Of a stretch of DNA of 33,900 bases, positions 1 through 33,900 are shown one piece after another; positions within the stretch are counted from its first letter, which is position 1; the number at the start of each line of letters is the position of its first letter. Both the position numbers and the translations under genes were made by a program. This DNA comes from Anaerolineae bacterium (GTDB lineage: Bacteria > Chloroflexota > Anaerolineae > SpSt-600). Location: the NCBI GenBank assembly GCA_025062375.1, contig JANXAG010000020.1, forward strand, positions 1-33,900, in the 5' to 3' direction. Below the pieces are notes generated by a model that had not been told where the DNA came from, searched no databases, and saw nothing but the letters and a program-made list of their open reading frames with translations.

Positions 1-210
1 TTGGGGGACACCCCCAAACCCCTGGGATGGGGCAAAGCCCCCCTCCACCCCCCGATTTTTTCCCCGTCCTCGGGGGCATAGGGGTTGCCACGGTTTTGGG
101 TCCCACTCGTGGGCGGGGTGCAAATGGTGGCTGATCTCTCCCTTTTTAGGGGTTTTTGAGGGAGCACCTCTAAATCCCTGGGAGGGGGCTTGGGCTCCCT
201 TTCACTTGTC
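1..210. repeat. GC-rich hairpin-rich repeat, left-end copy plus degenerate second head
   Basis: Bases 1-147 match, with scattered substitutions, the units at 33562-33900. Shared landmarks in the same order are a run of G followed by a run of C, GGGGCAAAGCCCC, a CCCCG..CCTCG block, GGTTGCCACGGTT, GGGTCCCACTCGTGGGCGGGGTGCAAA, and CTCCCTTTTT. From 148 a second, decayed unit head follows (GGGGTTTTTGAGGGAGCACC) and fades out by about 210. The unit is cut by the window edge. It lies upstream of ssb and contains no credible gene. Confidence 0.85.
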
Positions 211-2010: not shown

Positions 2011-2096
2011 GTGGTTGCTCGCTCTCTTTTTGAGTACTCTGGGGGCGCACCCCCCAGATCCCCTGGATACACCAACTGCCTACCCTCGTGGGGGCT
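2011..2096. repeat. Internal fragment of the GC-rich repeat
   Basis: GTGGTTGCTCGCTCTCTTTTT (2011-2031) followed by a G-run, GCGCA and a C-run matches the junction between consecutive units at the right end of the window. A short ACCCTCGTGGG piece follows at about 2082-2092. The middle of the unit has been lost. It sits between two convergent genes and may add to transcription termination by its G5/C5 hairpin, which is inference. Confidence 0.75.
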
Positions 2097-31855: not shown

Positions 31856-31884
31856 TTGACATTTGTAGATGTTTATGTTACCTT
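31856..31884 (+). promoter_or_regulatory. Promoter-like sequence ahead of the tnpB remnant
   Basis: Perfect -35 TTGACA (31856-31861), a 17-base spacer and a weak -10 TACCTT (31879-31884), eight bases before the ATG at 31892 of the broken tnpB. Confidence 0.45.
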
Positions 31885-31891
31885 AAGGGCC

Positions 31892-32484
31892 ATGAAGTTA
31901 TCTCTGCGGGCTAAGAAAACGGGGATTAGTTTTGCCCAATGCCCGACAATCGCCCATCGGGACGATATTGGTTCTTGAGGATGAAAACGCGCAGAAGAAA
32001 CCATGAAGGGTGGCAAGCGTGTCCTTTTGTGGAGATAGTCCAGAAGGAAGGAAAATGGTATGTGAAGCTGAGCTTTAAGAAGGTGGTGGAACTCCGAGAG
32101 GAGCTGCCAAAAGGTATAGACATAGGCTATAGGAAGCTCATAGCTACTTCAGATGGAAAACACATAAAGGAGTTTGTAGAGAAGGAGATAGACAAGAAAA
32201 GGCAAGGGTCTAAGAACTTCAGGCAAAAGAAGCACGATCTGAAAAGGGTCGTGGATGGGGCGTTCAGTAATGGGGATGTTTTCAGGTGCCTGCAATGTGG
32301 ATACGCGGAAGATGTGGACATTATAGGTGCGAGGAACATCCTCAAGCGGTTTATAGAGAAGCCTATAGTCCCTTTATACCTGTGAAACCTGTTCCCATAG
32401 CAATGTGAATAAATGTCTATGGGAATGGGAACTACAACTGCAGGCAAAGGAGCCATTAAAGGGTTCAGTTCTGAGGTTATGTGA
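31892..32484 (+). pseudogene. tnpB: Broken IS200/IS605-family tnpB
   Basis: From 31939 an open frame gives EIVQKEGKWYVKLSFKK, then GIDIGYRKLIATSDG (RuvC I with its catalytic D), and later FRCLQCGYAEDVDIIGARNIL (second half of the zinc finger plus the RuvC III aspartate). Between them only ~45 residues remain, so the RuvC II glutamate region and the first CxxC are missing. After the TGA at 32383, three further stops interrupt the same frame. Yet the tail GFSSEVM still reads in frame to a TGA at 32482-32484, showing decay by point mutation and internal deletion. The N-terminus is also frameshifted after the ATG at 31892. It cannot encode an active RNA-guided nuclease. Confidence 0.82.
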
Positions 32485-33519: not shown

Positions 33520-33561
33520 ATCGCAGGTAGTAAACGGCTGGATCAAGGGGAGACCGCTTTA

Positions 33562-33900
33562 GAGGTTTATGGGGCACATCCCCCAGACCTCCTGCCGTGG
33601 GGCAAGCCCCCTGGACCCCCCAATTTTCCCCGCCCTCGTGGGCCTAGGGTTTGACACGGTTCTAGGTCCCACTCGTGGGCAGGATGCAAGGGGTGGTTGA
33701 TCGCTCCCTTTTTGAGGTTTTTGGGGGCACATCCCCCAGACCCCCTGCCATGGGGCAAGCCCCCTGGACCCCCCCAATTTTCCCCACCCTCGTGGGCCCA
33801 GGGTTTGCCACGGTTCTGGGTCCCACTCGTGGGCGGGGTGCAAAGGGTGGTTGATTGCTCCCTTTTTGAGGTTTTTGGGGGCACATCCCCCAGACCCCCT
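33562..33900. repeat. Tandem ~153-bp GC-rich hairpin-rich repeat
   Basis: Unit heads GAGGTTT at 33562, 33714 and 33868 give spacings of 152 and 154 bases: two full units and a third cut by the window end. Each unit has a G5-CACAT-C5 hairpin, TGGGGCAAGCCCC, TTTTCCCC with CCTCGTGGG, CCCACTCGTGGG, and ends GGTGGTTGAT.GCTCCCTTTTT. Units are 90% or more alike by eye. Unlike a CRISPR array, there are no unique spacers. The same unit occurs at 1-210 and in part at 2011-2096, so it is an interspersed family. Open frames inside it are compositional. Confidence 0.92.

Follow-up and report, generated by a model that had tools for sequence, protein, structure and literature searches.

The window analysed here, a stretch of 33,900 bp, is one entire contig (G000:C20:1-33900) of an Anaerolineae genome of 94 contigs and 2.15 Mb, and it carries copies of a tandem repeat at both of its ends (Table 1). 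Tandem Repeats Finder assigns a period of 154, 2.2 copies and 92% matches to positions 33558-33900. Together with BLAST and direct reading, this confirms the first-pass annotation, which had placed a tandem repeat of ~153 bp at 33562-33900 and further copies at the window start and at 2011, all of them intergenic. The consensus unit of ~152 bp consists of module A, with two hairpins, and module B. Hairpin H1 has the form TTTCTGGGGG-CACAT-CCCCCAGA or GTGGGGGG-ACA-CCCCCCAC and hairpin H2 the form CCA-GGGGGC-TTCG-type loop-GCCCCC-TGG, and 3-4 nt beyond each hairpin lies another C5 run, conserved as strongly as the stems. Module B comprises CCCTCGTGGGC and CCCACTCGTGG, ends in CTCCCTTTTT, and is built from sequence-conserved CTCGTGGGC elements, two per unit. 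A protein-coding repeat was considered and rejected, given that units of ~150-155 bp keep no frame and the arrays avoid predicted genes.

Table 1 Features of the repeat family in the window.
Feature	Position	Strand	Remark
Repeat unit 1: module A, two hairpins; module B, CCCTCGTGGG...CCCACTCGTGGG...CTCCCTTTTT	33562..33714	+	
Repeat unit 2, 92% identical to unit 1	33715..33868	+	
Start of third unit, cut by contig end	33869..33900	+	
Diverged copy, 81% identity, at opposite contig end	1..147	+	
Decayed module A, terminating the array at the contig start	148..210	+	Same decay at other array ends
Decayed remnant with internal deletion: end of B, H1, start of B	2011..2096	+	Direct reading
Hairpin H1 of unit 2 (TTTGGGGGCACATCCCCCAGA)	33720..33740	+	Compensatory C-G / G-C / T-A at base across copies
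Hairpin H2 of unit 2 (CCATGGGGCAAGCCCCCTGG)	33748..33767	+	Double compensation, CC..GG to GG..CC, in other copies
Potential intrastrand triplex motif G5-TCT-G5-ATGTG-C5, H1 plus third run	33723..33745	-	
Potential intrastrand triplex motif G5-TCCA-G5-CTTG-C4, H2 plus third run	33752..33773	-	
CCCACTCGTGGG, near-invariant module B element	33822..33833; also 33668-33679, 102-113	+	

Of the 33 arrays that could be scored across the genome of the window (hereafter G000), 22 start no more than 7 model positions from the junction between TTTTTGAGG and TTTCTGGGGG, and six start at the A/B junction (positions 56-59). Array ends fall directly after module B, at CTCCCT(TTTT), in 22 of 36 cases, usually with a decaying partial module A beyond. 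These statistics do not support a unit boundary near GTGGTTG, which had been proposed from a reading of the 2011 copy as spanning a unit junction. That copy is a decayed piece of a longer array; it can be read by eye as GGTTGCTCGCTCTCTTTTTGAG..CTGGGGGCGCACCCCCCAG..CCCTCGTGGG and, being too decayed, falls below the threshold of the profile search.

A BLAST search of G000 with one unit as query, as the first-pass annotation had proposed, returned 75 pieces and revealed a dispersed family with dozens of copies, which rules out a merely local tandem duplication. An iterated profile applied to the stretches around these copies arrives at ~72 units, which form ~42 intergenic arrays of 1-4 units each; this count takes in the 2011 remnant, added by eye. 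The sole other genome of the genus compared (G001; MAG RSWS10 'Anaerolineae bacterium', JAPWUT01) has ~116 arrays with 1-7 units each and ~390 units in total, as found by profile search of fetched loci with duplicates between overlapping loci removed approximately. Both genomes are fragmented MAGs, with a completeness of 95% for G000, and they are not close relatives (67% median protein identity over 53 reciprocal best hits). With up to 2 mismatches, the 20-nt core GTTYTGGGTCCCACTCGTGG occurs 57 times in G000 (26/31 per strand) and 413 times in G001 (196/217), while its reversed control occurs 0 times in either; the abundance of the repeat is far above chance. The same core was found 0-1 times in each of 58 other genomes. 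A class set of 298 genomes, G000 and G001 included, yielded one negligible 35-bp match (E 7e-4) among the 296 others, and RSWS10 was the sole match among 84,980 species genomes, a set from which the window's own records may be absent. These searches show a family confined to one uncultured genus, in two genomes. A viral carrier was likewise sought and rejected, with no match to the repeat among IMG/VR contigs.

The repeat also explains break points of the G000 assembly, which is fragmented by this family. About 20 of the 188 contig ends lie in repeat copies or a few hundred bases from them, and the G000 copy numbers are therefore minima that underestimate the family. Breakage of the assembly by arrays is most likely also why the contig of the window stops within the repeat at both ends.

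A simple gene caller marks 84-90% of the sequence as coding, yet only one of the 158 arrays overlaps a predicted gene. Every gene arrangement is present around the arrays, divergent pairs included, and the upstream gene points into the array in 16 of 27 cases in G000 and 26 of 83 in G001. Where it does so in G000, the array often starts 2-25 nt past the stop codon, which speaks for a transcription terminator module at gene 3' ends, one of the functions suggested at first. However, with many arrays between divergent genes and a mixed upstream orientation, the placement is not terminator-like and follows no single-orientation 3'-end rule, and a terminator search gave 1 match against 1.0 expected from shuffles. 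We therefore regard a terminator as extremely improbable. The gene upstream of a G001 array is directed away from it in 57 of 83 cases; this 57 to 26 preference of the arrays' 5' side for gene starts makes the pattern not purely neutral. Relative to GC skew, array orientation has only a weak bias (26:13 and 58:39 in the two genomes). As a separate observation, 78 of the 116 G001 arrays run opposite to the locally dominant coding strand. No recurrent gene family was found beside the arrays, with at most 2 of 54 neighbours having a common Pfam family.

Compensatory changes maintain the pairing of two hairpins, without a sign of selection on an RNA strand. Over 70 units, 90% of cells are paired; shuffles give 84.7%, and sliding the positions gives 65% at most. 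In addition, 63 cells are changed on both sides, compared with 25.6 expected (0 of 500 shuffles reach the observed value); these counts are of sequences rather than events, in a family in which few haplotypes recombine. Compensation is clearest at the bases of H1 and H2 (Table 1), for H2 in both G000 and G001. The first-pass annotation had listed three conserved palindromes and suggested compensatory changes as a check. Such changes are present in two, G5-CACAT-C5 and GGGG(G)CAAGCCCC(C), while the third, CCCACTCGTGGG, is uncompensated and conserved as sequence only. Many G001 units have a broken CCCAC...GTGGG helix in the first B element.

Compensated hairpins would also be a property of a structured RNA, as had been suggested earlier, or of an RNA-level element made from each unit (a small RNA, an attenuator or an mRNA stabiliser). 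The - strand unit folds slightly better than its shuffles (z -2.0), and the CTCCCTTTTT end lies behind an imperfect stem, both of which agree with such an element. Yet the core stem pairs depart from pairing about as often by G-U as by A-C (~24 and ~25, counted across copies), which indicates that neither strand behaves as RNA. The + strand folds like its shuffles (z -0.16 as RNA, -0.10 as DNA), the third hairpin is broken in G001, and the arrays occur in every arrangement relative to genes. Rfam searches gave only chance-level matches below gathering scores, and no promoter-like site was found. On this evidence, a functional RNA is highly improbable.

The sites of the arrays are partly conserved between the two genomes. 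The repeat occupies none of the three window sites in G001, and clear orthologous loci free of it were found for the ssb-M50-PCC block next to the left copies as well as for the VIT1-like gene next to the right array. For nine other array-adjacent genes, a G001 counterpart lies within the fetched loci. In three cases an array is present on the matching side and runs in the same direction, in three more the side agrees but the orientation is reversed, and the last three counterparts have no array. This mixed sharing indicates that array sites are partly old and partly gained or lost. Within G001, unit identity is 0.848 between adjacent units, 0.883 between units two apart and 0.816 between different arrays, and the difference in G000 between near units and different arrays is small (0.83 vs 0.81). 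The higher identity of nearby units is as expected from local duplication.

Against a difference of ~18% between units of different arrays, CCCACTCGTGG stands out as near-invariant, with ~95-100% conservation per position in both genomes and no compensation. One explanation is that a nucleoid or segregation protein, or a regulator, binds CTCGTGGGC/CCCACTCGTGG and that the arrays are host sites for chromosome organisation or regulation. The almost strictly intergenic position of the arrays and the sites common to G000 and G001 fit this explanation as well. However, the majority of checked sites are not common to both genomes, copy number differs several-fold between these sister genomes, many copies are decayed, and orientation shows no rule with respect to genes and only a weak one with respect to GC skew. 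A host DNA-binding array thus appears unlikely.

For a family that is dispersed, short, palindromic and non-coding, mobilisation in trans by a transposase, as in a classical MITE or a RAYT-mobilised REP/REPIN family, has to be weighed. A search of G000 for a Y1/RAYT transposase (PF01797; 95% completeness) gave no match while positive controls were detected. G001 has one Y1-type gene (locus L184, 1501-1821), a weak IS200-type match whose protein appears to lack the HUH motif. It is flanked by its own REP-like palindromes, and no profile match to the repeat was found around it. Palindromes of this type and a triplex-like module occur in 11-26 copies each in the fetched G001 loci and in 0 copies in the G000 loci, and several lie inside G001 arrays of the ~152-bp repeat, which makes these arrays mosaics. 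The Y1 gene, and the occurrence of its flanking-type palindromes inside some arrays, are what G001 offers in favour of a REP-like system. A RAYT or IS200-type mobiliser was nevertheless rejected, given that G000 has none and the G001 copy is unlinked to the repeat.

Nor do the arrays show the terminal inverted repeats of a MITE: they start with TTTTTGAGGTTTCTGG and end with GATCGCTCCCTTTTT, which are not complementary. As for target-site duplications, the longest word common to the two flanks of an array was no longer than in shuffled pairs (5.1 vs 5.4 and 5.5 vs 5.5), in a test that decayed edges weaken, and none of the flanking genes is a transposase linked to the arrays. We consider a MITE or RAYT-mobilised family very unlikely. 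With no target duplication, terminal inverted repeat or linked transposase seen and no Y1 gene found in G000, we infer transposition from dispersal only. Of the non-autonomous mobile element named as one possibility in the first-pass annotation, the mobile-like behaviour is supported, with sites not common with the sister genome. Separately, the window holds at 31860-32385 (+) an apparently internally deleted relic of an IS200/IS605-type TnpB, recognised by its C-terminal TNB domain at a sub-threshold E of 2e-4; it is the genome's only TNB match and lies ~1.2 kb from the array.

On the - strand, each hairpin and the run beyond it follow the order G5-N3/4-G5-N4/5-C4/5, that is, three adjacent G/C runs in the order of a hairpin plus a third strand. 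The window contains 7 such triplex-type motifs, compared with 0.07 expected, all within the repeat. Intrastrand triplex motifs with a minimum run of 6 have been tied to genome instability (PMC4666352). The repeat resembles these motifs in its hairpin G/C runs with a third run at 3-4 nt, in its many copies and in its intergenic position. It differs in that the potential triplex pattern occurs twice per tandem 152-bp unit, with runs of mostly 5 nt; measured against the stem length of at least 6 nt in PMC4666352, most G000 runs fall short at 5/5/5 while some G001 copies reach 6. For H1 in G001, the lengths of the G-run and the third run are correlated (rho 0.34, p 5e-6), which linkage could also cause. 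G001 arrays additionally hold a CCCTTCCC-GGGAAGGGGG-GGGGGTTAGG module built as the motif pattern of PMC4666352. A more far-reaching and, in our view, doubtful reading is that the arrays, as tandem DNA that forms triplexes, would be copied elsewhere without a transposase, through replication or repair at hairpin or triplex barriers. They would then be a non-coding satellite that propagates itself and drives rearrangement of the genome in the lineage. In some G001 loci, for example L089, L096 and L097, a second G/C module (CCCTTCCCTCGCAGGGAAGGGGGCCAGGGGGTTAGGT) resembling the triplex motifs is inserted between units; it was counted 26 times across the fetched G001 loci and 0 times across those of G000.

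The repeat lies between genes at many places, in either orientation, and its arrays end in decayed partial copies. The reading we prefer, with a probability of roughly two in three, is that of a genus-restricted, non-coding, dispersed family of tandem DNA repeats, a mosaic palindromic satellite that spreads and amplifies as DNA. Its units would multiply and disperse at the DNA level; G/C runs able to form hairpins or triplexes would stall or misdirect replication and recombination, and slippage or unequal recombination would make the arrays grow and shrink. The element would be selfish or nearly neutral to the host, and insertions within genes would be purged by selection. The near-invariance of CCCACTCGTGG in both genomes could reflect a bound protein and a host function, and this counts against the reading.

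As a satellite, the repeat appears to add a new family to a class of bacterial repetitive DNA that is known but uncommon, the class that includes BIME, NIME, BOX and prokaryotic satellites. Dispersed non-coding satellite families with long repeats are reported to be rare in prokaryotes (PMC6749651). Like those of Leptospira interrogans and Methanocella conradii (PMC6749651), the family consists of tandem non-coding repeats of more than 30 nt in several separate arrays at many places of the genome, is species- or genus-specific, and has its transposition deduced from spread alone. Unlike them, it has a ~152-bp unit with compensated hairpins, short arrays (1-7 units), far more of these arrays (~42 and ~116) and a distribution common to two species. 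With BIME, REP and REPIN (PMC2817692, PMC3116915) and with NIME and BOX (PMC3049150) it has in common that it is intergenic, palindromic, modular, dispersed and often in short arrays; BOX also has a tandem middle module, and REPINs have compensatory changes. In contrast to these elements, the unit is larger and arranged head-to-tail with no alternating REP orientation, G000 has no RAYT, and neither terminal inverted repeats nor target duplications were found. The MIRU of mycobacteria likewise form tandem units at tens of intergenic loci, but they belong to an unrelated organism, measure 77-101 bp and are not known to have strong dyads. The Anaerolineae family is large, its sites and number differ between sister species, it has no obvious transposase, and its compensated hairpins carry a third run. 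Hence, a link between non-B DNA structure and repeat spread becomes testable within one genus.

One further locus bears on genome order. In G000, two divergent genes flank an array (L059, 5306-9301). Their counterparts lie on separate G001 contigs (L138 and L162), and an array is found 5' of each, so that synteny may be broken here at the repeat.
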